NCBI GenBank assembly: GCA_017626325.1 | Contig: JAGAIZ010000049.1 | Location: 16,111 to 80,110, forward strand | DNA from: Lachnospiraceae bacterium | Lineage (GTDB): Bacteria; Bacillota; Clostridia; Lachnospirales; Lachnospiraceae | Reading direction: 5' to 3' | Length of the DNA: 64,000 nucleotides | In this document: positions 4,564 to 52,888 of the stretch, piece after piece | How the letters are laid out: every line of letters begins with the position of its first letter | Numbering within the stretch: the stretch's first letter is position 1 | Notes under the pieces: generated by a model | Databases searched by the model: none | What the model saw: only the letters and a program-made list of their open reading frames with translations | Told to the model about the DNA's origin: nothing | Program-made: the position numbers and the translations under genes

Positions 4564-5388
4564 ATGAACGGACAGGAAACAAGATTTAACAGTACGTCTG
4601 ATTATGTGGCGTCAGAACAATTACTTGCAAGTGTAAACGTGGCGATTGCCCTGCAGAAGCCGCTCCTGGTAAAAGGAGAACCGGGTACCGGTAAGACGAT
4701 GCTCGCGCAGGCGGTGGCGAATTCTCTGGGCAAGAAGCTGATCATCTGGAATGTAAAATCCACGACGAAGGCACAGGACGGCCTGTATATGTATGATACG
4801 ATCCAGCGGCTGTATGACGGACAGTTTGGTGAGGAAGGGGTAGAGGATATCGCCCGCTATATTAAGCTCGGCAAGCTGGGAGAGGCTTTCGAGGCAGACG
4901 AGCAGGTGATCCTGCTGATTGATGAGATCGATAAGGCGGATCTGGAATTCCCCAATGATCTGTTATGGGAGTTAGACCAGATGGAATTCTATATTCATGA
5001 GACGAAGAGGACGATTAAAGCCAAGCACAGACCGATCGTAATCATTACTTCCAATGCGGAGAAGGAGCTTCCGGACGCGTTTTTGAGAAGATGTATTTTC
5101 CATTATATTGATTTCCCGGATCAGGCGCTGATGGAGGAGATTGTGAGAACGCATTATCCTGATGTAGAGGACAAGCTGTTAAAGGACGCTATGGATGTGT
5201 TCTACTGGATTCGTTCCATGAAGGACATTCGTAAGAAGCCAAGCACTTCGGAGCTGATCGACTGGATCAACGCCCTGCAGATTGGCGGGATTTCCACGGA
5301 TAAGCTCAGGCAGGAACTGCCGTTTATCGGCGTAGTGGTTAAGAAAGATGAAGATCTGGAAACTGTGAAACACAAGACAGACTTCTAA
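4564..5388 (+). CDS. MoxR-family AAA+ ATPase
   Basis: AAA+ ATPase of 274 residues with Walker A GEPGTGKT (about residues 39-46), Walker B LLIDEIDKAD (about 119-128), a sensor asparagine in IITSNAEKELP and the FLRRC arginine motif. MoxR proteins act as chaperone-like partners of von Willebrand factor A proteins, inserting cofactors or remodelling complexes. Such a VWA protein is encoded 11 bases downstream, so the two probably form one machine. The client is not evident from the neighbours. Confidence 0.85.
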   Translation: MNGQETRFNSTSDYVASEQLLASVNVAIALQKPLLVKGEPGTGKTMLAQAVANSLGKKLIIWNVKSTTKAQDGLYMYDTIQRLYDGQFGEEGVEDIARYIKLGKLGEAFEADEQVILLIDEIDKADLEFPNDLLWELDQMEFYIHETKRTIKAKHRPIVIITSNAEKELPDAFLRRCIFHYIDFPDQALMEEIVRTHYPDVEDKLLKDAMDVFYWIRSMKDIRKKPSTSELIDWINALQIGGISTDKLRQELPFIGVVVKKDEDLETVKHKTDF

Positions 5389-5399
5389 GAGGGCTTTCT

Positions 5400-6596
5400 A
5401 TGTTCAGTAAATTTTTCTATACATTGAAGGATAAAGGGCTTGAGGTATCCTTAAGCGAGTGGCTGACACTGCAGGAGGCGCTGCAGAAAGGACTGTGCCA
5501 CAGCAGTCTGACGGAATTCTATTATGTAGCGCGCATGATTCTTGTCAAATCCGAGACGGAGTACGATAAATTCGATATGGCGTTTGACGAGGTGTTCAAG
5601 GGAATCCAGTCGGAGAATGATGTGACGAAGAATATGCTGCGCTGGCTGGATAAGCCGGAGCTGCAGGATGTCTTTGAAGAGATGCGCCATGAAATGAATC
5701 AGGAAGTAATCACGCTTGATAAGGAAGACGTGGAGAATAAGTTCAAGGACAGACTGCGTGATCAGAATGAAGAGCATAACGGCGGCAGTTACTGGATCGG
5801 CACGATGGGCAAAACCTCCTTCGGCAATATGGGCGGCAATATGGGCGGTATCCGTGTGGGCGGTACTACGGGCTACCAGTCGGCCTTTCAGGTAGTAGGC
5901 GCCAGGAAATACCGCGATTTCAGAAATGACAAGGTATTGGATAACAGGCAGTTCCAGATGGCACTGCGGAAACTCAGGCAGTTTTCAAGCAGGCTTGATA
6001 TACCGGAGACGGAGCTTAATATTAACGGTACGGTGAACGCTACCTGCAATAATGGCGGCTGTTTGCAGATTGTAATGGAGAAGCCAAGGAAGAATGCGGT
6101 GAAGCTGTTATTGCTTATGGATTCCGGCGGCACGATGATTCCTTATACGACGCTGTTAAATGAGCTGTTTCATTCTGTGCATAAATCCAATCATTATAAA
6201 GAGGTGAAGACATATTTCTTCCATAATTGTATCTATGCGAATCTGTATAATACGCCGGAATGTGAGAATGGGGATTGGATTGAGACGGAGTGGATGTTCA
6301 GGAATCTGGACAGTGATTATAAAGTGATTATCGTGGGAGACGCGGCGATGGCGCCGGAGGAGCTATATTCTGTGACAGGAAACTACAGAGGCCCGAACGG
6401 AGGATTATCAGGAATGGACTGGCTGCTTTTGATGAAGCGGCATTATAAGAAAATCGTATGGCTTAATCCTAAGATGGCGCCGGGACATGCGCCGTGGAGG
6501 GAAGCGGAGACTGCCATCAAAGAACTTTTTCCGATGTATAAGCTGACGGTTGACGGTCTCAACCAAGCTATGACAAAGCTTATGTCCAACCGGTAA
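5400..6596 (+). CDS. VWA-domain (CoxE-like) partner of the MoxR ATPase
   Basis: A 398-residue protein without a signal peptide. Residues 1-130 are helical and charged. A glycine-rich stretch near residues 137-165 contains NMGGNMGGIRVGGTTG. A C-terminal von Willebrand factor A domain has its metal site as MDSGGTM at about residue 240. That site reads DxGxT rather than the usual DxSxS. Pairing with MoxR suggests the two work together in protein or complex maturation in the cytoplasm. The substrate is unknown. Confidence 0.8.
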   Translation: MFSKFFYTLKDKGLEVSLSEWLTLQEALQKGLCHSSLTEFYYVARMILVKSETEYDKFDMAFDEVFKGIQSENDVTKNMLRWLDKPELQDVFEEMRHEMNQEVITLDKEDVENKFKDRLRDQNEEHNGGSYWIGTMGKTSFGNMGGNMGGIRVGGTTGYQSAFQVVGARKYRDFRNDKVLDNRQFQMALRKLRQFSSRLDIPETELNINGTVNATCNNGGCLQIVMEKPRKNAVKLLLLMDSGGTMIPYTTLLNELFHSVHKSNHYKEVKTYFFHNCIYANLYNTPECENGDWIETEWMFRNLDSDYKVIIVGDAAMAPEELYSVTGNYRGPNGGLSGMDWLLLMKRHYKKIVWLNPKMAPGHAPWREAETAIKELFPMYKLTVDGLNQAMTKLMSNR

Positions 6597-6642: not shown

Positions 6643-7707
6643 ATGTATCGGGTAATGATCGTAGATGATAATATGGCAAATCTGATCATGGCCAGAAAAA
6701 CGTTGGATGATGAGTATGAAGTGATTCCGGTATCGTCAGGGATTTCCGCCCTGGAATGTCTGAACGATATGCCGGAGCTGCCGGACCTGGTGCTTTTGGA
6801 TGTGGATATGCCCAATGTGAACGGATTCCAGGTGATCTCCGAGATGAAGCATGTTCCCAAGCTCGCGGGGATTCCGATTATTTTCCTGACGGCACAGGAT
6901 GATGACGCGACGGAGCTTGAGGGCTATAATTTAGGGGCGATAGATTATATCAGGAAGCCTTATACGGCAAACCTCTTAAAGAAACGGGTGGACATACAGT
7001 TCCGGCTTCTTTCGCAGCAGCGCAAGCTGGAAGATATGAATAAATCCCTGAATTATCTTGTCCGTGATAAGAATAAGAAGAATGTGGAATTGCAGTATTC
7101 CATCGTGGATATGTTTGTGAATATTCTGGCAAAGCGAAACAGTTATGCCGGCAGCCACGCAAGACGCGTGGAGAAGTATATGGATATTCTGATCAGCGCC
7201 ATGCTGCGTTCCGGCAGATATAATCTGACGGCAGACGACGGTATTACGATTTGTTTTGCGGCCAAGATTCATGATATTGGTAAGTTATGCATTGCTGATC
7301 AGTATTTAAATGACGCGAAGAATAATAGAATGGATGAAGTGGAGCACAAGACTGTTATGTCGCATACGACGCTGGGAGCAGATATTTTATCTGAGGTGAC
7401 ACAGTTGAACGCGGGAGGGAATAATTTCATGCGTTTTGCCTATAACATGTGCCGCAGCCATCATGAGCGGTGGGATGGAAGCGGATTTCCGGAAGGACTG
7501 GCAGGCGAGAAGATTCCGATGGAAGCCAGGGCGCTGGCGATCGTGAATACCTATGATAATCTGCGGAATAACGCAGTGGAAGGCAGAGCATTGAGCCATG
7601 AGGAAGCCTGCATGAAAATCCGGCTTATGAAATATACCTGTTTTGATGGGGGAATGGTTGATCTTTTCCTGTCTGTAGAAAACGATATTAAGAACATAGC
7701 AGGTTAA
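6643..7707 (+). CDS. Receiver-HD-GYP response regulator (probable c-di-GMP phosphodiesterase)
   Basis: A receiver domain (residues 1-120, phospho-acceptor Asp 53 in LVLLDVDMPN, Lys in IRKPYT) is joined to an HD-GYP domain (about 145-350). The HD pair is in KIHDIGKL (His 210, Asp 211), and the downstream HHERWDGSGFPEGL motif has Phe in place of the Tyr of GYP. HD-GYP proteins hydrolyse cyclic di-GMP. The gene is 14 bases before the two hybrid kinase-like genes and is the likely output of that pathway. GAGAGGA lies upstream of the ATG. Confidence 0.88.
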   Translation: MYRVMIVDDNMANLIMARKTLDDEYEVIPVSSGISALECLNDMPELPDLVLLDVDMPNVNGFQVISEMKHVPKLAGIPIIFLTAQDDDATELEGYNLGAIDYIRKPYTANLLKKRVDIQFRLLSQQRKLEDMNKSLNYLVRDKNKKNVELQYSIVDMFVNILAKRNSYAGSHARRVEKYMDILISAMLRSGRYNLTADDGITICFAAKIHDIGKLCIADQYLNDAKNNRMDEVEHKTVMSHTTLGADILSEVTQLNAGGNNFMRFAYNMCRSHHERWDGSGFPEGLAGEKIPMEARALAIVNTYDNLRNNAVEGRALSHEEACMKIRLMKYTCFDGGMVDLFLSVENDIKNIAG

Positions 7708-7720
7708 TTGGAGACACATT

Positions 7721-9826
7721 ATGTTATTAAAAGAGCAATTTAATCAATTTTTTGCTACGGAGTTTTCAATTGATGTTCAAATGTTTCGCAGGGCAGTAAG
7801 TCTTGGCGCCGCAGAGTTTTTGATCATGATGCTGGTATCGATTCTGCTTCGGGAGCCTGTACCTGTGATTCTGTTGTTGCTGGCGGGAGGTTGCAGCTCT
7901 GTTCTGGCGCTTTTTATTCATGCGAAGCTTGATCAATTGAATAGCCTTACGCTCGGTTATTTATTTTTGATACATATCATATTGATTCCCGCTCTGGGGA
8001 GGTTCTGTGAAAATGCAATCTATGATTTCCCGGTTTATTTCGTAGAGGGAATCATGTTTACGGCGCTCCTTCTGAAAGGAAGGCAGGCGGTCTGTATGAT
8101 TCTGGCGGAAATGTCCATAGATTTGTTCTGCATTTACCGTATGACGAGACAGGCTGCTATGGTGATTGCCATGCAGGAGAATGGCGCGCGGTATTCTCCG
8201 GAGCTGTATGTCCGTGTGATCGCCGCCATCGGCATGACAGGAAGTGTCTGCGGTCTGCTGATTGCGCACCGCAAGAAGCTTCTGCGGGAGGAAATTCGTA
8301 AGTGCACTGAGATGGAACGTCAGGCGGAACAGGTGAATTTTGCCAAGGATATGTTCTTAGTCAATGTATCCCATGAGATCAGGACGCCGCTCAACGCGAT
8401 CCTCGGAACGGCGGAATTATTGGTTGATCTGGACGCGGACGATAAGATTAAGGAGAATGCCTTTGATATTGCCAATTCCAGCAAGGCGCTTCTGGCGATT
8501 ACCAATGACCTTATGGATTTCTCCAGAATAGATTACAGTAATATCCGGCTGGAAGAAGAGTATTATTATGTGGGAGAATTGCTGAGTGAACTGCTCAATG
8601 TATGTTCTGTCCGTTTTGCTGACTATAATATAGAATTGTTTGTCGACATATCGCCGGATATACCGGGGAAGCTGTGGGGAGACGGCGCGAAATTCAGACA
8701 GGTGTTGTATTCTCTTCTGATTGGCGCGGTTAAATCCATGGAAAGCGGAGAGGTACGCTTTAATGTCGCCTGCTGTCCGAAGGACAAGCAGAAGGTCGAG
8801 CTTCAGGTAGAATTATGCGCAAGAGGCGTCTTTCAGCATTCCTATCTGGAGAAGCTGCGGCAGGAAGACGATTATAATCTTGCTTACGGAGACCAGAGAG
8901 GCGCGTTAGTCAGACAGTTGATCGATGTGCTGGGCGGAAAGTTTGAAGCGGAGGAAAAGCTCAACGAGCGATCCTATTGTTTCAAAGCCGCACAGGGCTA
9001 TCAGGATGCGAAAGCCATCGTAGAGAAAAACAGAGAAAACGTCTGTATTTTGTTTTACGAGAACAGTATTCTGCAGGGGAATGCTTTCGCAAAGGTTTTG
9101 AAAGATATGGGTCTGCGTTTTTGCCAGGCTTCTTCCAATGAATATTTCTATGAGGAATGCGTGAAGGATTACTACAGTCACATTATGATTGCATCAGAGC
9201 GCTACGAGAGCATGAAGGACGGGCTGAAACAGATTCTGCATCCGCAGTCGGTGATTTTGGTCAGTCCGGGTATCGTTACTTATGATGACAATTTGATCAG
9301 GACGACTTTTGCCAGACCGGTTAATTGTCTTAATATAGACGCCCTGCTCGAGGGAAGAAAGAATAATTCCATCAGATATATGGGATACCGCGGCAGTTTT
9401 ATCTGCCCGGAGGCAAGAATTATGGTAGTGGATGATAATATCATCAATCTGGAGGTGGCTTCCGGCATATTGAAGAAATATGAGGCGCAGACCGTACTTG
9501 TGAGCAGCGGCAAGGAATGCCTGAATTATCTGCAGAGTGAGAGCGTAGACTTTATTTTCCTCGATTATATGATGCCGGAGATGGACGGCATTGATACGCT
9601 TAAGAATATCAGAGCCCTTCAGAAGCCGGAGCTTATGCATGTTCCGATTGTGGCGCTTACTGCAAACGCGGTCAGCGGCGCCAGAAAAATGTTTATGGAA
9701 GCCGGGTTTGACGAATATATATCCAAGCCGATAGAACTGGGTAAATTTGAGAAAGTGCTGCGGGAACATCTGGCGGAGAATAAGATGATATTTACAACAG
9801 ACAATGAGGCGGCAAATGAAAGATAG
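7721..9826 (+). CDS. Hybrid histidine-kinase-like membrane protein with degenerate ATPase domain
   Basis: 701 residues. Hydrophobic segments fill about residues 25-185. A coiled linker leads to an intact H box, NVSHEIRTPLNAILG, with His 218. The following catalytic domain is eroded: the N box reads SLLIGAVKSM without its asparagine, and no DxGxG motif can be found. A receiver-like fold without acidic residues spans about 435-560. An intact receiver follows (VVDDNIINL, Asp 615 in FLDYMMPEMDG, Lys in ISKPIE). It overlaps the next gene. It may be phosphorylated by a partner rather than by itself. Confidence 0.8.
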   Translation: MLLKEQFNQFFATEFSIDVQMFRRAVSLGAAEFLIMMLVSILLREPVPVILLLLAGGCSSVLALFIHAKLDQLNSLTLGYLFLIHIILIPALGRFCENAIYDFPVYFVEGIMFTALLLKGRQAVCMILAEMSIDLFCIYRMTRQAAMVIAMQENGARYSPELYVRVIAAIGMTGSVCGLLIAHRKKLLREEIRKCTEMERQAEQVNFAKDMFLVNVSHEIRTPLNAILGTAELLVDLDADDKIKENAFDIANSSKALLAITNDLMDFSRIDYSNIRLEEEYYYVGELLSELLNVCSVRFADYNIELFVDISPDIPGKLWGDGAKFRQVLYSLLIGAVKSMESGEVRFNVACCPKDKQKVELQVELCARGVFQHSYLEKLRQEDDYNLAYGDQRGALVRQLIDVLGGKFEAEEKLNERSYCFKAAQGYQDAKAIVEKNRENVCILFYENSILQGNAFAKVLKDMGLRFCQASSNEYFYEECVKDYYSHIMIASERYESMKDGLKQILHPQSVILVSPGIVTYDDNLIRTTFARPVNCLNIDALLEGRKNNSIRYMGYRGSFICPEARIMVVDDNIINLEVASGILKKYEAQTVLVSSGKECLNYLQSESVDFIFLDYMMPEMDGIDTLKNIRALQKPELMHVPIVALTANAVSGARKMFMEAGFDEYISKPIELGKFEKVLREHLAENKMIFTTDNEAANER

Positions 9827-12602
9827 AATCGTACAGTACATGGAGCAAAAATTAGGCGAAATGGGGTTTGAAGAATTCCTGACGAACCTCTTTTTTATCA
9901 TGGTAATCTCTGAAACGGTTATCATGATTCCGATTGCCGTTGCGGACGGAAAGAGCGGCATACTTTTGTGCCTTATGTTTCTGCTGGCAGTGGGGATGGG
10001 AATCCTTCTGTGGATTAATTTAAGATTCAAAAGATATGTTAAGACCGCGATTGCCGCCGTTATTTTTGTGTATGGGATCGTGTTTCCGTTTATACTTCTG
10101 TCGGATCATTCCTTTTATGTTGTGGGGATTCTGTGGTTTACGACCAGTATTGTGGTGATTTATACGATTTTTGGCGGTCCGGCTCTTTATATGATGCTGT
10201 TCTTTTTTATGTTTGAGTACTGTTATCTGTACAGCGGCATGCTGTTTCATGACCCGGCAATGGAGAACGTTTATTATCAGATTCCTCAGTTTATGAGTAT
10301 GGCTGTTGCCTTTGCGGGAACGATGAGCTTCTTTCTGGTTATTCTGTATGTGCAGCAGAAGTACTATCTGTATCAGAACCGCCGGATTATGATCAGCAGC
10401 CGTAAAATCGAACGTGCAGGCACTGCGAAGAGTCAGTTTCTGACGAACATGTCTTATGAGATCAGGACGCCCATGAATTCTATTATCAATATTTCAGAGA
10501 TCATGCTTAAGGAAGAAATGAATGGGGAGATCAGGACGGAAGTGAATACAATCAGAGGGGCGGCCTATGATCTGCTGGCAATTATCGACGATGTGCTTAC
10601 CTATGCCAGGATAGATTCCGGTAATATGCATCTGATTAAAGAAGCGTACAGCTTTGAGAAGCTTGCCAAAGAGATTGTGCAGACCGTTTCGGAAGAACTG
10701 CAGCAAAAGAAGCTGTTTATGGACGTGAAAATAGACCATGCTATTCCTAAATTGCTTCTGGGGGACAGTGTGGTAATACGTCAGATATTTCTGTATCTGC
10801 TGTTTATTTCCATTGAAAGCACCGACAGCGGGCGGATAGCGCTGGAAATCACCTGCGATAATGATCATGAAAATCATAAATGCGTATTCCACTGTAAAGT
10901 AGCCGATACCGGAAGAGGATTGTCAGAGATCGATATCCGGTCTTTGTTCGGCATGTATAATACATATGATTCCAGACAATCCAGCAATTTGAAGGGAATC
11001 GGATTGAAATTCTCTATCTGTAAGGAGCTCCTGTCTATGATGCAGGGCGATATCAGAGTAGAGAGCATAGAAGGAATCGGTCTGTGCACCTATTTCAGTT
11101 TTGAAAATGAAATTATCGATGAAAGCCCTATGATTTCTCTGGAGAGCGGGAGAAAGCCCAATGTGCTTATTTATGCTTCGGAAGAAATACAGATTAACAA
11201 GTGGCAGAATATTATGGAGGGATTCGGAGTAAGGCCTGCCTACAGCCGGAATTATTATGGATTTGACAGAGCCATACAGGATAAGCATTTTGATTTTATT
11301 TTTGTGCCGGATAAGGCGTATGAGAATTTGTCCAACATTATCGCGCTGTACCAGTGTGAAGAGTATACTTATGTCATGGCGGAGCACAATGCTGTTTATG
11401 GGGACTTCGGGAGATGCAGGCTGATTTACAAGCCGTTTACCTGCATCAGCGTTGCCGATGTGCTGAATCATAACTGGAAGAAGGAAGATTATAGAAAGAG
11501 CCCTACGGCTGTGGCATTTACGGCAAAGAACGCTAAGGTACTTGTGGTGGATGACAATGTGGTGAATCTGAAAGTGGCGTCCGGTATTTTCAGCAAGTAC
11601 GGTATAAATATTGCAGTAGCCACGTGCGGCAAGGACAGTCTCAGAAAGATTGAGAGCGAGCGCTACGATCTGATCCTGATGGATATGGTCATGCCGGATA
11701 TAAGCGGAAGCGATGTGCTCAAACAGATCAGGGAGAAGGAGGAGCGGTATTATAAGGAAGTGCCGATTGTGGCATTGACCGCACAAAACGGCGCGAATGT
11801 CAGGGAGCAGATGCTGGAACTGGGATTCCAGGAGTATCTTACGAAACCGATCAAACGCCGCTATCTGGAGCAGTGTCTGCTGCAGTTTCTGCCGGAAGAG
11901 CTGATCGAGAAGGTGATAGCGGAAGATAAGAAGAACGGGAAAAAGAATGATTCCGCGGTCAAAAACAGCAGCTTAAGCAAGAAGGCGGAGGGCGGCCTGA
12001 ATATCGAGAAGGGGCTGTCGAACATAGGAGGCAGCGAGGACGGCTATGCTGCTGTCCTGAATTCCTATTATGCGGAAGGACTCAAATATCTGGATACGCT
12101 TCCTAAGCTTCTTGAAACGGGTGATATTCAATTATTTACGACGAATGTACACGGTATTAAGAGTTCCAGCGCAAGCATAGGAGCCACAGAGGTATCTGTG
12201 CTTTTCAGGAAACTGGAGTATGCGGGGAAGAACGGAAGAATCGAGGAAATCAATCAGAGATTTCCTGCCAGCATGGAGAAATTTAAAGATATGCTGGAGA
12301 TTGTGAAGGAATATCTGGTTCGGATCGGCAAACTGCAAGAGACGGCGCAGGAGGAGAATCTGGAGGATAAGGAAAAGGAAGAGCTGACTATGGAGACGCT
12401 TACTGCGCTCAAGGCGGAGTTAGACCGGATGAATCTGAAAGTGACGGACTATCAAATTCCGGAGCTTGCGTCCAGAAACTTCGGCCCGCAGGCAAACGGG
12501 CAGATCAGAAAGCTGAAAGAAGCTTATGAGGCGTTTGATTTCCATCAGGTGAAAGCGATACTGAATGACATGATTGCGTCTATAGAGGAAATTAGTAGTT
12601 GA
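9816..12602 (+). CDS. Hybrid histidine-kinase-like membrane protein lacking the H-box histidine, with HPt domain
   Basis: About 928 residues: a membrane region (20-190), a dimerisation helix whose H box reads NMSYEIRTPMN (Tyr at position 214 instead of His), an ATPase-like domain with DTGRGL and KGIGLKFSI kept but no N-box asparagine, a pseudo-receiver, a receiver (VVDDNVVNL, Asp 623 in LMDMVMPD, Lys in LTKPIK) and a C-terminal HPt domain with His 779 in VHGIKSSSASIGA. The start at 9816 has GAGG nearby; an in-frame ATG at 9804 has none. It overlaps the previous gene by 11 bases, so translation is coupled. Confidence 0.8.
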   Translation: MKDRIVQYMEQKLGEMGFEEFLTNLFFIMVISETVIMIPIAVADGKSGILLCLMFLLAVGMGILLWINLRFKRYVKTAIAAVIFVYGIVFPFILLSDHSFYVVGILWFTTSIVVIYTIFGGPALYMMLFFFMFEYCYLYSGMLFHDPAMENVYYQIPQFMSMAVAFAGTMSFFLVILYVQQKYYLYQNRRIMISSRKIERAGTAKSQFLTNMSYEIRTPMNSIINISEIMLKEEMNGEIRTEVNTIRGAAYDLLAIIDDVLTYARIDSGNMHLIKEAYSFEKLAKEIVQTVSEELQQKKLFMDVKIDHAIPKLLLGDSVVIRQIFLYLLFISIESTDSGRIALEITCDNDHENHKCVFHCKVADTGRGLSEIDIRSLFGMYNTYDSRQSSNLKGIGLKFSICKELLSMMQGDIRVESIEGIGLCTYFSFENEIIDESPMISLESGRKPNVLIYASEEIQINKWQNIMEGFGVRPAYSRNYYGFDRAIQDKHFDFIFVPDKAYENLSNIIALYQCEEYTYVMAEHNAVYGDFGRCRLIYKPFTCISVADVLNHNWKKEDYRKSPTAVAFTAKNAKVLVVDDNVVNLKVASGIFSKYGINIAVATCGKDSLRKIESERYDLILMDMVMPDISGSDVLKQIREKEERYYKEVPIVALTAQNGANVREQMLELGFQEYLTKPIKRRYLEQCLLQFLPEELIEKVIAEDKKNGKKNDSAVKNSSLSKKAEGGLNIEKGLSNIGGSEDGYAAVLNSYYAEGLKYLDTLPKLLETGDIQLFTTNVHGIKSSSASIGATEVSVLFRKLEYAGKNGRIEEINQRFPASMEKFKDMLEIVKEYLVRIGKLQETAQEENLEDKEKEELTMETLTALKAELDRMNLKVTDYQIPELASRNFGPQANGQIRKLKEAYEAFDFHQVKAILNDMIASIEEISS

Positions 12603-12629: not shown

Positions 12630-12945
12630 ATTCAGTAAGTATAATACAGGCGTTGATAAGAACAAGTAGTAGATTATGAAACGTACAGAGAGCGGCCGGT
12701 TGGTGAGAGGCGCACGGGAAATTCTCTATGAATACATCTTGGAGCTTCATGACAGAATGGATATATCCTAGTAGGTTATGACGTGGCTGCACGTTACAGC
12801 AGATGAGTATCATTTTAGAATATATTTGAGATATGGATTATTTTAAGATCGTACTTAGTGAGGCGGATAATGTGAGTTATCTGTGAAATTAGGTGGTAAC
12901 ACGAGATATAACCTCGTCCTATGAAGATAGGACGGGGTTTTTTGT
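12630..12945 (+). promoter_or_regulatory. T-box riboswitch, tyrosine-specific
   Basis: The leader carries the T-box consensus AGGTGGTAACACG (12891-12903), in which UGGU can pair with the 3' end of uncharged tRNA. A terminator follows at 12912-12943. In the long stem I region a TAC tyrosine codon sits at 12733-12735 in GAATACATC, as expected for the specifier loop. The next gene is tyrS. The family stops transcription when tRNA-Tyr is charged and allows it when uncharged. Confidence 0.92.
12912..12943 (+). terminator. Regulated terminator of the tyrS T-box
   Basis: CCTCGTCCTAT pairs with ATAGGACGGGG around a GAAG loop, followed by seven Ts. Its 5' arm can instead pair with the T-box sequence to form the antiterminator. 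Confidence 0.9.
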
Positions 12946-44707: not shown

Positions 44708-46432
44708 ATGGAAGAGCTGAAATATCAGGTGGATTTATTAAATGCGATGAACCGTAAGCTAATCAGGGACGAGAAAATGCTTCGGCTGATCTGTGAGACG
44801 TCAAGCAGCGCATTTCTATATTATAACTATGAAGAAGACAGAGTACAGACGATTGCGAACTGGGATCACTTCTTTTCCTTTGCCATTACAAATATTAAGG
44901 ATTTAAAGAAATTGTATGACTGCGTGGAAGAGAAGGATATTATTCCGCTCAGGGAAGTATTCTTCATAGAGAAGCAGGGTATGAAAAGCCAGACCATAGA
45001 GGTCAAATTAAAGGAGAAGCGCATCTGTATTGAAGTAGAAGTCAATATCGTATATGATTCCATGAGTAATCCAACTGATAAAATTATTCGCTTTAAAGAC
45101 GTGACGAAGTTTAACGCCCAGAATGATGAACTGACTTATATGGCGTATTATGATCTTTTGACCGGGCTTTATAACCGTAATTATTTCGTCAGACTGCTGG
45201 GAGAATTCGTAAGACGGGCCCAGGAGGAGAAGGAGACGGTTGCCGTAATGTTTCTCGATCTGGACGATTTCCGCAGAATTAACGACGGCATGGGCATTAT
45301 TGTGGGCGATGAGCTGGTCCAGCAGGTCGGGCAGTTCTTATTTGATTTGATGAATGATAATATTCATATCGCTCATTTCAACAGCGATATTTACTGCATT
45401 GCGGTTTATAATCCCTGCGGGGCCAGAAGCGTGGAGACAATCTACCGGACGATTAAGGAACGGCTCAAGAAGCCTTTTGTATTGACGAGCGGCCAGGAGA
45501 TCTATGTTACGGCGAGCGTAGGCGTGGCCGAATACCCGGAAGCAGCGTTGACTACGTTGGATCTGATCAACTGCGCTGAAATCGTTATGTTTAAGGCCAA
45601 GAGCCTTGGCAAAGACAAAATCCAGTATTTTGACGGCGCTATTCTGGATGAATTTCTGAAAAATGTCAACATTGAAAACAAATTAAAGGAAGCTGTTTTT
45701 TCGCAGAATTTCACGATGTATTTCCAGCCGCAGTTCAAAACGGCGGACAAGGCGCTGCGCGGCGTGGAGGCATTGATACGGTGGAAGGATGATCATGGCA
45801 AGATGATCAGCCCTTCTGTTTTCATACCGATCGCCGAGAAGAACGGCGCGATCATCCCCATAGGAACGTGGGTAATCGAGGAAAGCCTGAAAGCGTATGC
45901 GGAATGGAAAAGGAAATATCATTATCCGATGATCATATCGCTTAATATCTCTGCGATTCAGTACAAGCAGCCTGATTTTATAGATAAAGTATTGCATATT
46001 CTCAAGAAATATGACGTCTCGCCCTATGAGATTGAACTGGAGATCACGGAATCTATTCTGATTGATGATTTTGATGAGATTACCGAGAAGATCGTGATGC
46101 TGAGAAATATGGGAATTAAAATATCTCTGGATGATTTTGGAACCGGATATTCTTCTTTATCTTATCTGAAAGGTCTGCCGATCGATACGCTTAAGATTGA
46201 CAAGTCCTTTATTGATACGGTAATCACAGACGAGAATACGAAAATTATTACGGAATCTATTATTTATATGGTCAAAAAGCTGGGGTTCGAAACAATCGCG
46301 GAGGGTGTTGAGACGGAAGAGCAGTTCCGTTATCTGAATGAAATTTCCTGTGATATCATTCAGGGATTTTATCTTGGAAAGCCGATGCCGTCAGAGGGAA
46401 TCGAAACATTGCTGGCAAATATGGATTTATAA
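44708..46432 (+). CDS. Degenerate GGDEF-EAL c-di-GMP phosphodiesterase
   Basis: 574 residues: an N-terminal PAS-like region (about 1-135), a GGDEF domain (about 140-310) and an EAL domain (about 325-570). The GGDEF signature is replaced by FNSDIY, so cyclase activity is unlikely. The EAL site is complete: GVEALIRWK, SLNISAIQY, ELEITES, DDFGTGYSSLSYLKGLPIDTLKIDKSF and EGVETEEQ. The protein should hydrolyse c-di-GMP to pGpG, perhaps with the dead GGDEF domain as a regulatory nucleotide sensor. No membrane segments are visible. Confidence 0.9.
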   Translation: MEELKYQVDLLNAMNRKLIRDEKMLRLICETSSSAFLYYNYEEDRVQTIANWDHFFSFAITNIKDLKKLYDCVEEKDIIPLREVFFIEKQGMKSQTIEVKLKEKRICIEVEVNIVYDSMSNPTDKIIRFKDVTKFNAQNDELTYMAYYDLLTGLYNRNYFVRLLGEFVRRAQEEKETVAVMFLDLDDFRRINDGMGIIVGDELVQQVGQFLFDLMNDNIHIAHFNSDIYCIAVYNPCGARSVETIYRTIKERLKKPFVLTSGQEIYVTASVGVAEYPEAALTTLDLINCAEIVMFKAKSLGKDKIQYFDGAILDEFLKNVNIENKLKEAVFSQNFTMYFQPQFKTADKALRGVEALIRWKDDHGKMISPSVFIPIAEKNGAIIPIGTWVIEESLKAYAEWKRKYHYPMIISLNISAIQYKQPDFIDKVLHILKKYDVSPYEIELEITESILIDDFDEITEKIVMLRNMGIKISLDDFGTGYSSLSYLKGLPIDTLKIDKSFIDTVITDENTKIITESIIYMVKKLGFETIAEGVETEEQFRYLNEISCDIIQGFYLGKPMPSEGIETLLANMDL

Positions 46433-50680: not shown

Positions 50681-52888
50681 ATGCAGATGAGTATGGAATT
50701 GAATATGGAATCCTTTGGTTCCATGATTGACAATATAATAGCTGGTATTTGCTTCTTTGAATATGAGAACGGGCAGTTGACTCCCATATTTACCAATGAA
50801 GGGTTATTCCGTATGCTCGGATATTCAAGGACACAGGGAATCCGGTATCTGAAGAAGATTGAAATGAGTATCATACCGGAGGATTTGCCGAGATTCCGAC
50901 AGGCAATTGCGGACGTCTTAAAGGACGACGGCGCGGTGGATGTGGAATTCCGTACGGTAACGGGCAGCGGCGGACTGCGGTGGCTGTACGCGAGGGGCAA
51001 TCTGTATGCCAGAGAGGGCGGCAAATACATTATTGTAACGATCATCCAGGATATTTCCGAGCGGAAGAACGCGGAGGAAGAACTGCGTCAGCAGGCGGAG
51101 AGACTGCACATTCTGTCTGCGGCGGAAGGCGGGAAGATTATCGATTACAATGCCAAGACAGACGTTATGGTCATCAAATCGTCCGGCGATTACGGCATTG
51201 CGGATGAAAGAATCCAGAATAAATATCTGGAGAAGTTTGACGACGCTTCTATCCATAAGGAGGATGTCGCCTATTATAAGTCTGTTATGGAGGGATTGTT
51301 AAAATCTCCGAAGCATGACACCATTGAATTCAGGATCAAATGGTTTGATGAAGAGTATACCTGGTATCAGGCGAACCTGACATCTCTTCTGGGCGCGGAA
51401 GGATATGTGACGAGAATCGTCGGCCGTATGCTCAATATCCATGAGAAGAAACTAAAGGAACTGGAACTGCTGCTCAGGGCGGAGAAGGACGGACTTACCG
51501 GGCTGTATAATCAGAGCGCGACGATGCAGTTGATTCAGAACGCGATACGCGAGAGCGCTCCCGGGTCCTTAAATGCGCTGATGATCATTGATCTGGATAA
51601 TTTCAAGGAAGTCAATGATCTTACGGGACATTCCCAGGGCGATAAGATGCTGGTGGAAACAGCCAATGTCCTGAGCGATATTTTTAAAGGCGGGGATATC
51701 GTGGGACGTATCGGCGGCGACGAATATATGGTTTTTATGAAAAACCTGAATTCCATTTTCGATGCGGACCGTATGGCAGGTCAGATTGTGAAGGATGTAA
51801 ATTATACCTTTGAATTTGAAGAGCAGACGATACCCGTAACCTGCAGCGTGGGCGTTGCCATATTTCCGTATCACGGAAACAGCTATGAAGAGCTTTTTGA
51901 CAAAGCGGACAGGGCATTGTATACGGCCAAGGCAAACGGCAAATGCGGATACCGGATCTATGACGCCGCTACCACGATGGTATATCACGCTAACAGAAAG
52001 AATGCGGAATATAGCCCCGAAAAGGGAATGGACAGGAATCCCCAGATCGAGGATATGGTAATGCAGATTCTGTTTGAAGACAAAGATATGGAGTCTGCGC
52101 TTAGATCAACGCTTGAGCTTATGACGGCCAAATATCATTTCCATCGCAGTTATATCTGTGGCAATGAGGCGCTTCCGGTTTCCCGAACGGTACAGTTCGC
52201 TCTGCCGGGATACGAAATCGGCAAAGAGACAAAAGAGCAGTACGAATTAAAAAGAGTCGTCAGTGAGATATTATACGAGTCTTTCCATAAGGCGTCGGTC
52301 ATTCATGATTATGACCTGACGGCGGAAGAGATGCGTGATTACTTCAGAGCGAAGGGCATTAAGAGTATGCTCTATTATCCGATTACTTCCAAAGGTGAGT
52401 TTCAGGGCGCTATCGTATTTGAGAATCACGAAGACGTGCAGCTTGAATTCCGGGAGAGCCAGATGGAAGAGATCAGCTCGCTGTTCCGGATTCTGGAGGC
52501 GCATATTCTGCAGATCGGCCTGATGGACCGTCTGGAGGATTTTGTGACGCAGATTGCCGTATTCGATAATCTGGACAGTTTTGTATATATTGTTAATCCC
52601 GATACGTATGAACTCAGCTTCATCAATAAGAAGGTGCTGATGAATACGCCGGAGGTCAAGATCGGCGACGTCTGTTACAAGGCGCTGCAGAACAGAGATA
52701 CGCCATGCGAGGACTGCATCCTGAAGAAGCTGAATAAGGAGGATGCTCATTGCCGGTGTACGGAGGAACGTTTCAATTATTCCCTGCGTTCCTGGAACAG
52801 AGCCAGTGCAAGCTGGCTGGAATGTAAGGAGCAGAACGGGCTGGCGCTTATTAACTGCATCGATATTTCAGAATATTTTATAGGGTAG
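50681..52888 (+). CDS. Multi-PAS diguanylate cyclase with Cys-rich C-terminal sensor
   Basis: 735 residues. Two PAS domains (about 10-130 and 145-260) lead to an intact GGDEF domain (about 265-430; site RIGGDEYMVF, cofactor Asp in MIIDLDNFKEVND). A GAF-like region follows (about 455-615). The C-terminal PAS-like domain carries Cys residues in DVCYKALQNRDTPCEDCILKKL and CRC. It should make c-di-GMP under control of these sensors. The start is uncertain between 50681, 50687 and 50693; GGGG lies 3-8 bases ahead. Closed by a strong terminator. Confidence 0.88.
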   Translation: MQMSMELNMESFGSMIDNIIAGICFFEYENGQLTPIFTNEGLFRMLGYSRTQGIRYLKKIEMSIIPEDLPRFRQAIADVLKDDGAVDVEFRTVTGSGGLRWLYARGNLYAREGGKYIIVTIIQDISERKNAEEELRQQAERLHILSAAEGGKIIDYNAKTDVMVIKSSGDYGIADERIQNKYLEKFDDASIHKEDVAYYKSVMEGLLKSPKHDTIEFRIKWFDEEYTWYQANLTSLLGAEGYVTRIVGRMLNIHEKKLKELELLLRAEKDGLTGLYNQSATMQLIQNAIRESAPGSLNALMIIDLDNFKEVNDLTGHSQGDKMLVETANVLSDIFKGGDIVGRIGGDEYMVFMKNLNSIFDADRMAGQIVKDVNYTFEFEEQTIPVTCSVGVAIFPYHGNSYEELFDKADRALYTAKANGKCGYRIYDAATTMVYHANRKNAEYSPEKGMDRNPQIEDMVMQILFEDKDMESALRSTLELMTAKYHFHRSYICGNEALPVSRTVQFALPGYEIGKETKEQYELKRVVSEILYESFHKASVIHDYDLTAEEMRDYFRAKGIKSMLYYPITSKGEFQGAIVFENHEDVQLEFRESQMEEISSLFRILEAHILQIGLMDRLEDFVTQIAVFDNLDSFVYIVNPDTYELSFINKKVLMNTPEVKIGDVCYKALQNRDTPCEDCILKKLNKEDAHCRCTEERFNYSLRSWNRASASWLECKEQNGLALINCIDISEYFIG

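Follow-up and report, generated by a model that had tools for sequence, protein, structure and literature searches.

Here we describe two overlapping genes, encoding the membrane hybrid histidine kinases HK1 and HK2, in a 64,000-nucleotide stretch of DNA from a Lachnospiraceae bacterium (GenBank contig JAGAIZ010000049.1, positions 16,111 to 80,110 of the forward strand; hereafter the window), which sits in a metagenome-type assembly (genome label G000, contig C32). Across 81 orthologous pairs, loss of the catalytic and ATP-binding (CA) domain of HK1 goes together with loss of the H-box histidine of HK2, a correlation that points to one mixed complex and not to two separate switches. We propose, with a probability of roughly 0.58, that HK1 and HK2 are protomers of one heteromeric hybrid-kinase complex in which HK1, using ATP, would ancestrally have phosphorylated the HK2 histidine, and which would now act as a phosphotransfer and phosphatase node. 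The two genes have the following features, given in window coordinates.

7721..9826, plus strand: HK1 (701 amino acids), a membrane sensor with HisKA (H box intact), a CA domain without N, G1 and G2 boxes, a pseudo-receiver and a receiver.
8363..8395, plus strand: HK1 H box NVSHEIRTPLN (residues 215-225, His218), from alignments.
8672..8998, plus strand: remnant of the HK1 CA domain (residues 318-426) without Asn, DxGxG or GxGxG, from alignments and the lack of a HATPase_c match.
9413..9775, plus strand: HK1 receiver with predicted phospho-acceptor Asp615, from Pfam and alignment.
9816..12602, plus strand: HK2 (928 amino acids), a membrane sensor with HisKA (Tyr for His), a CA domain without N-box Asn, a pseudo-receiver, a receiver, a histidine phosphotransfer (HPt) domain and a C-terminal region.
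10446..10478, plus strand: HK2 H box NMSYEIRTPMN (Tyr214), from alignments.
10761..11102, plus strand: HK2 CA domain with Asn replaced by Ile331, DTGRG and the lid YDSRQSSNLKGIGLKFSIC, from Pfam and alignment.
11538..11873, plus strand: HK2 receiver with predicted phospho-acceptor Asp623, from Pfam and alignment.
12057..12302, plus strand: HK2 HPt domain with His779, from Pfam and alignment.

Pfam matches HisKA and Response_reg in HK1, and no HATPase_c match was found in this protein at E values up to 1. The N-box equivalent of HK1 reads SLLIGAVKSM, with Gly in place of Asn, and alignment found neither DxGxG (G1) nor GxGxG (G2); the HExxT motif, with Glu at H+1 and Thr at H+4, is retained. In HK2, Pfam matches HisKA, HATPase_c (48.8 bits), Response_reg and Hpt, and the motifs read YLLFISIEST at the N box (Asn to Ile), ADTGRGL, KGIGLKFSI, LMDMVMP in the receiver and VHGIKSSS in the HPt domain. 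Neither protein is a canonical hybrid histidine kinase of the kind that would place a His in both members together with N-box Asn and G1 and G2 boxes. An earlier interpretation made from the letters of the window alone (the sequence-only reading) had described HK1 as keeping its H-box His without N-box Asn or DxGxG, and HK2 as bearing Tyr at the H box, no N-box Asn, retained DTGRGL and KGIGLKFSI, an intact receiver and an HPt His; Pfam and the alignments bear out each of these points. It was also right about an 11-base overlap of the genes behind a receiver-HD-GYP gene (6643-7707): because GAGG lies 6 nt before ATG 9816, we prefer this start of HK2, which gives that overlap with the HK1 stop at 9826, over the start at 9804 in the list of open reading frames, with which the overlap would be 23. 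Downstream of the HPt domain, HK2 residues 850-928 (window 12363-12599) form a conserved C-terminal region with no match above the Pfam cut-off; its mean identity is 68% among members of the window's genus, and 40% within g227.

Profile searches covered 397 family genomes, relatives of G354 and G478, and the genera of G306 and G192. Six genera besides the window's own have orthologous adjacent pairs (the genera of G354, G319, G306, G478, G151 and G192), and the HK1 and HK2 genes adjoin at every locus counted, as two co-inherited genes. HK1 is canonical in 49 of the 57 pairs outside the window's genus (e.g. NLLNNAVKYT, DTGIGI, EGTGLGL); three of these proteins were scanned and matched HATPase_c at 82-92 bits. 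We scored the HK1 CA domain as intact when N-box Asn, DxGxG and GxGxG were all present, and otherwise as decayed. HK2 carries its His in 49/49 pairs with an intact HK1 CA domain and lacks it in 28 of the 32 pairs with a decayed one. The pattern recurs outside the window's genus (His in 49/49 intact pairs, absent in 6/8 decayed) and under a stricter call that counts an HK1 as decayed only when all three boxes are lost (HK2 His absent in 25/28, vs 3/53 among the rest). HK1 keeps its own His in all 31 decayed sequences with data, and in all 80 HK1 sequences, from all genera, that cover the position. If HK1 worked as a homodimer, its own His would be free to vary after the death of its CA domain, and the opposite is seen; since this His is kept and the neighbour's is lost, the partner of the HK1 CA domain appears to be the HK2 His.

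On a midpoint-rooted tree of 80 tips (G151, in which over half of HK1 is missing, was left out), CA decay falls into three clades: the window's genus with G319, three of the four g87 genomes, and three of the 33 g227 genomes. All six HK2 His losses (Dollo count) lie inside these clades, which make up 37% of the tree length (0.37^6 = 0.003). A Pagel-type comparison on this tree favors dependent over independent loss (likelihood ratio 24.9, p = 5e-5, a value to be read with care because there are only three decay events), and the likelihood ratio is similar on single-gene trees (25.9 for HK1 only, 25.0 for HK2 only); in the dependent model, HK2 His loss is assigned a rate at the lower bound for as long as the HK1 CA domain is intact. 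Intermediates survive in G319, G516, G533 and G534, where HK1 has lost G2 and kept Asn, with DxGxG kept in three of them, and two members of the window's genus have an HK2 His, kept or regained, beside a fully decayed HK1. From these intermediates and the two His-bearing members, the order of loss seems to have run from the HK1 lid to the rest of the HK1 CA domain and then to the HK2 His.

The 81 pairs exclude, as distant relatives, L271 (G140), L272 (G401) and the single kinases L273 (G177) and L192 (G257). Since the H, N, G1 and G2 boxes are canonical in all six proteins of these loci, adding the L271 and L272 pairs would not contradict the pattern. Also omitted were the fragment of the broken HK1 of G151 that holds the receiver, G588 (HK1 cut at a contig edge) and, by a length filter, the 272-amino-acid second piece of the G546 HK1. 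L271 and L272 each consist of two adjacent hybrid kinases, both canonical in their boxes, and may be remoter examples of the arrangement described here; L272 adjoins an HD-GYP-type gene.

Several observations weigh against our interpretation. The HK2 His is present in 4/32 pairs with a decayed HK1 (G047, G030, G534 and G151, in the last of which HK1 is broken). With three independent CA-decay events the effective sample is small, and placing the root at the midpoint influences the numbers of events counted. Pairs were recruited by their similarity to HK1 and HK2 at strict E cut-offs, and more diverged pairs were missed. HK2 lacks N-box Asn in 34 of the 49 genomes with a canonical HK1; because it is degenerate in so many of them, the HK2 CA domain is, on its motifs, not simply the preserved other half of a divided kinase. 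Finally, all 24 HK2 proteins of the window's genus lack this Asn, an argument against their being the kinase that remains.

The lost motifs are unusual within the window's own genome. Among the best-scoring 30 of its 34 HisKA loci, which we read one by one, the H-box His is present in 29, HK2 being the sole exception, and the N-box Asn in 28, the exceptions being the adjacent HK1 and HK2. Some other HisKA loci of the genome deviate at G1 or G2 (e.g. L344, L345, L346, L351); G-box deviations by themselves are not unique to the pair.

At a cut-off of E up to 1e-150, an HK2 orthologue is found in 24 of 77 genomes of the window's genus (the named relatives are Lachnospiraceae metagenome-assembled genomes, one of them labelled only Clostridiales), and HK1 adjoins it in 24/24. 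The N, G1 and G2 boxes of HK1 are gone in all 24, and its His is kept in 23/23 members with data (G027 is truncated by the end of its contig). At the HK2 H box, 20 members have Tyr, two His, one Gln and one Asp. The HK2 N-box Asn is replaced by Ile or Val throughout, with an acidic residue (Asp or Glu) three positions further on in 24/24, and DTGxG and the lid YDS(R/K)QSSNLKGxGLKF are retained. Because the 24 genomes with the pair share this motif loss, we rejected misalignment or a frameshift as its source. The sequence-only reading had named canonical motifs in orthologues of close relatives as one finding that would speak against it. Within the genus there are none for HK1 or for the HK2 N box; the HK2 His of two members, and the canonical HK1 that prevails in the other genera, are the motifs of this kind that we did find.

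Alignments of 20 HD-GYP, 20 HK1 and 18 HK2 sequences from the genus show five invariant phospho-sites, among them the receiver Asp of HK1 and of HK2, the HPt His and the receiver Asp of the HD-GYP regulator. We also compared nonsynonymous with synonymous substitution rates (dN/dS) in ten close pairs for HK1 and nine for HK2, omitting cells with undefined dS. With several dS values above 1, and so near saturation, dN/dS is 0.01-0.10 in the dimerization and histidine phosphotransfer (DHp) domain of HK1, 0.08-0.36 in its CA domain (residues 276-426), 0.05-0.11 in the HK2 CA domain (residues 271-436) and 0.01-0.09 in the HK2 receiver. From these values, neither gene is a pseudogene. The HK1 CA domain is the relaxed part, and the HK2 CA domain is constrained about as much as the HK2 receiver; mean identity within the genus is 71% for the HK2 CA domain vs 45% for that of HK1.

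These values bear on the idea that the whole system is losing function and that the matching losses reflect relaxed selection. Signs of such general decay do exist: in G151 (L189), HK1 is broken into fragments by stop codons and HK2, its frame open, has a degraded H box (EMTHTSRTL) and an early end, so that the system may be dying in that species; in G546, HK1 is split over two reading frames with canonical motifs; and three g87 genomes have lost the HK2 receiver Asp. In the window's genus, however, the DHp, receiver, HPt and HK2 CA domains are under purifying selection, with dN/dS well below 1, the phospho-sites are invariant and synteny is conserved, and we regard general decay as highly improbable.

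In the heteromer that we propose, the HK1 CA domain would ancestrally have bound ATP and phosphorylated the HK2 H-box His across the complex, the HK1 His being used too, and phosphoryl groups would then have passed via the receivers and the HK2 HPt domain to the neighboring receiver protein. In the window's lineage, the half-reaction from HK1-bound ATP to the HK2 His would have been dismantled, HK1 CA decay coming first and the HK2 His being dispensable afterwards. What would remain is the HK1 His with its phosphatase-type HExxT motif, a strongly constrained remnant of the HK2 nucleotide pocket, and an intact relay consisting of the HK1 Asp, the HK2 Asp, the HK2 HPt His and the regulator Asp. 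Judged by its motifs, the window's pair has no canonical autokinase left, and its downstream phospho-sites are invariant. The HK1 His, flanked by Glu at H+1 and Thr at H+4, could serve both phosphotransfer and dephosphorylation, and the HK2 CA domain looks too constrained to be idle. The present-day complex would most likely be a phosphotransfer/phosphatase node tuned by nucleotide, its phosphate coming from another kinase or, at a low level, from the action of the non-canonical HK2 CA domain on the HK1 His. Because a role in phosphoryl transfer, and a pairing with the acid at H+1, are ascribed to the N-box Asn, we place most weight on a phosphotransfer/phosphatase complex that is charged elsewhere, and about a quarter on an HK2 that acts on HK1 despite lacking this Asn. 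The phosphatase or scaffold system that the sequence-only reading had offered as an alternative may be compatible with this, given the retained HExxT motif of HK1. We suggest, tentatively and at somewhat less than even odds, the broader view that the pair has repeatedly dismantled one of two cross-protomer reactions in a set order, and that the window holds a five-site phosphorelay without its own canonical ATP-using step, being either a phosphatase/phosphotransfer complex devoid of kinase activity or a relay whose ATP site functions without N-box Asn.

The first proposal of the sequence-only reading had been a heteromeric relay in which HK2 supplies nucleotide binding and HK1 the phospho-acceptor. 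Its heteromer is supported indirectly by the correlated loss across genera and by the precedent of FasB/FasC, discussed below; its direction is the opposite of the ancestral one suggested here, from HK1 ATP to HK2 His, and in the window's lineage would be possible and hampered by the missing N-box Asn. As a split kinase of this kind, the Asn-less HK2 CA domain would bind ATP and phosphorylate the HK1 His in the heterodimer, feeding the relay. The strong constraint on the HK2 CA domain, its retained DTGxG and lid, and the invariant HK1 His all fit such an arrangement, as do the g87 genomes G166, G515 and G516 (loci L190, L269 and L270), which are nearly textbook cases of complementarity. In these, the HK1 CA domain is dead (G166, G515) or lacks G2 (G516), HK1 keeps its His and receiver Asp, and HK2 retains the N-box Asn together with DxGxG and the HPt His and has lost its H-box His (3/3), along with its receiver Asp (to Asn). 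His, Asn and DxGxG are thus complementary across the pair in G166 and G515, whereas in the window's genus the N-box Asn is on neither protein; by these motifs, the split of functions is cleaner in the three g87 genomes than in the window's lineage. Three points make the split kinase doubtful for the window. The Asn to which a role in phosphoryl transfer is ascribed has become Ile or Val in every genus member. The first Gly of G2 is missing from the lid of every HK2 read, including those beside a canonical HK1, so HK2 was probably a non-standard kinase already in the common ancestor. Nor is there any consistent sign that the HK2 CA domain improves where that of HK1 is lost: N-box Asn is not enriched in HK2 with HK1 CA loss (6/32 decayed vs 15/49 intact).

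HK2 might instead, as a pseudokinase resembling DivL, sense a phosphorylated regulator or scaffold HK1, with HK1 acting as a phosphotransferase or phosphatase resembling Spo0B or ChpT, the kinase input coming from one of the genome's canonical kinases, and no catalysis across the pair. The Tyr at the HK2 H box is as in DivL, HK1 retains the H+1 acid and the H+4 Thr, and the 28 of 30 HisKA loci read (the best 30 of 34) that carry both His and N-box Asn could supply the phosphate. This account leaves unexplained why the HK2 His is kept in every pair with a canonical HK1 and lost only after CA decay, and the H-box residue is not fixed as Tyr, with Y, Q, D, N, M, F, L and G all found; we consider it unlikely as the whole explanation. 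The heteromeric complex with an ancestral HK1-to-HK2 reaction remains the reading that we prefer.

The gene order around the pair is metF-like (opposite strand), MoxR-like ATPase, VWA protein, receiver-HD-GYP, HK1, HK2, T-box leader and tyrosyl-tRNA synthetase-like gene, the window's neighbors being named by eye; relatives in the genus have this order too, to the extent that their contigs cover it.

4564..5388, plus strand: MoxR-like AAA+ ATPase, labelled by eye, with a Pfam AAA match.
5400..6596, plus strand: VWA protein, CoxE-like, the CoxE-like match being below the Pfam cut-off.
6643..7707, plus strand: receiver/HD-GYP response regulator, from Pfam and alignments, with HD and HHERWDGxG(Y/F)P retained and the metal-ligand Asp replaced by Asn.
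12644-12924: T-box leader (Rfam RF00230) ahead of the tyrosyl-tRNA synthetase-like gene, an ordinary element.

The MoxR-like ATPase and VWA protein are upstream neighbors of the kinase pair in 5/7 genera, and are not beside it in four g227 loci (G548, G527, G531, G530). The metal site of the window's VWA protein reads DSGGT; the usual VWA motif is DxSxS. In g113 (L191, L306-L322), most HK2 end before the HPt domain, and MoxR and VWA are absent from the stretches fetched.

The window's HD-GYP protein carries HDIGK and HHERWDGSGFP, and so the HD and HHExxDGxGYP signature with Phe for Tyr. At the metal-ligand position equivalent to D305 of PmGH, it has Asn, as do 18/20 sequences, and the relatives G013 and G001 carry Asp; in PmGH, D305A markedly reduced activity without abolishing it. 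The HD-GYP gene lies beside the pair in 23/24 genus members (the remaining one, G027, is truncated by the contig end), in G354, in G319 and in 33/33 g227 loci read. All four g87 loci lack it next to the pair, as does G151, where the pair is broken, and in g113 its position is taken in 16/18 loci by a stand-alone receiver of about 130-190 amino acids (the other two are cut), one of which was scanned and matched Response_reg only. With 19 GGDEF matches and one PilZ match in the genome, control through cyclic di-GMP (c-di-GMP) is plausible here. Two GGDEF domains lie in large open reading frames downstream, at window 45143-45616 and 51482-51943 (C32:61253-61726 and 67592-68053). We rejected, as a general rule, a pair dedicated to c-di-GMP, because the HD-GYP gene is missing or replaced in g87 and g113; on this gene order, c-di-GMP would not be the defining function of the pair, nor HD-GYP output a fixed part of it. 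The sequence-only claim that the system feeds c-di-GMP breakdown is weakened as a generality by the same loci, and by the change from Asp to Asn at the D305 position.

The correlated losses amount to an evolutionary experiment on who phosphorylates whom, with intact, intermediate and decayed states open to biochemistry, and they suggest a means of finding heteromeric kinase pairs from sequence alone. They also offer a case of a phosphorelay that seems to be kept even though it no longer has an ATP-using step of its own. Histidine kinases are generally regarded as homodimers; to our knowledge, few heteromeric pairs have been tested, FasB/FasC being one example. A search of one open-access library by phrase for co-degenerating or heterodimeric kinase pairs returned no relevant report for the phrases used, which missed FasB/FasC as well.

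Among single proteins, Spo0B and ChpT combine a DHp His with a CA-like domain that makes no use of ATP; HK1 differs in being a complete membrane hybrid protein that itself carries a receiver. DivL of Caulobacter, as described in PMC4211667 (where ChpT is named as a phosphotransferase), has no kinase or phosphatase activity, yet binds DivK~P and works with the hybrid kinase CckA. Like DivL, HK2 has Tyr for the H-box His (in the window and 20/24 genus members). Unlike DivL, described there with PAS domains and DHp-CA, HK2 has a receiver and an HPt domain and gave no match to PAS for E values up to 1, and its H-box residue varies by lineage. The chloroplast sensor kinase CSK has altered G1 and G2 boxes and still binds ATP, and its H-box His is replaced by Tyr or Gln in green algae and by Glu in higher plants (PMC5054060). 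In that account CSK is one protein for which no such partner is described, and the altered boxes are G1 and G2, with no N-box loss reported.

Two systems divide the work between proteins. In Rhodobacter sphaeroides, neither CheA3 nor CheA4 autophosphorylates alone, acceptor and ATP-binding functions being on two proteins, and the acceptor protein, when free, acts as the principal phosphatase (PMC3591291). As presented there, these are chemotaxis (CheA-type) kinases from which entire domains are missing, whereas HK1 and HK2 keep their domains and lose motifs. The closest tested case, by analogy, is FasB/FasC of group A Streptococcus, two membrane sensor-kinase-like proteins from one operon with one regulator, which form a heterodimer by two-hybrid; the FasC kinase domain is dispensable, FasC being a proposed pseudokinase, and the FasB kinase domain is proposed to phosphorylate FasC His246, the likely phospho-site (PMC12675982). 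That report describes FasB and FasC as transmembrane-DHp-HATPase proteins without receivers or HPt domains, with a ComE-like transcription factor as output. HK1 and HK2, by contrast, are both hybrid kinases, and their catalytic state varies by lineage.

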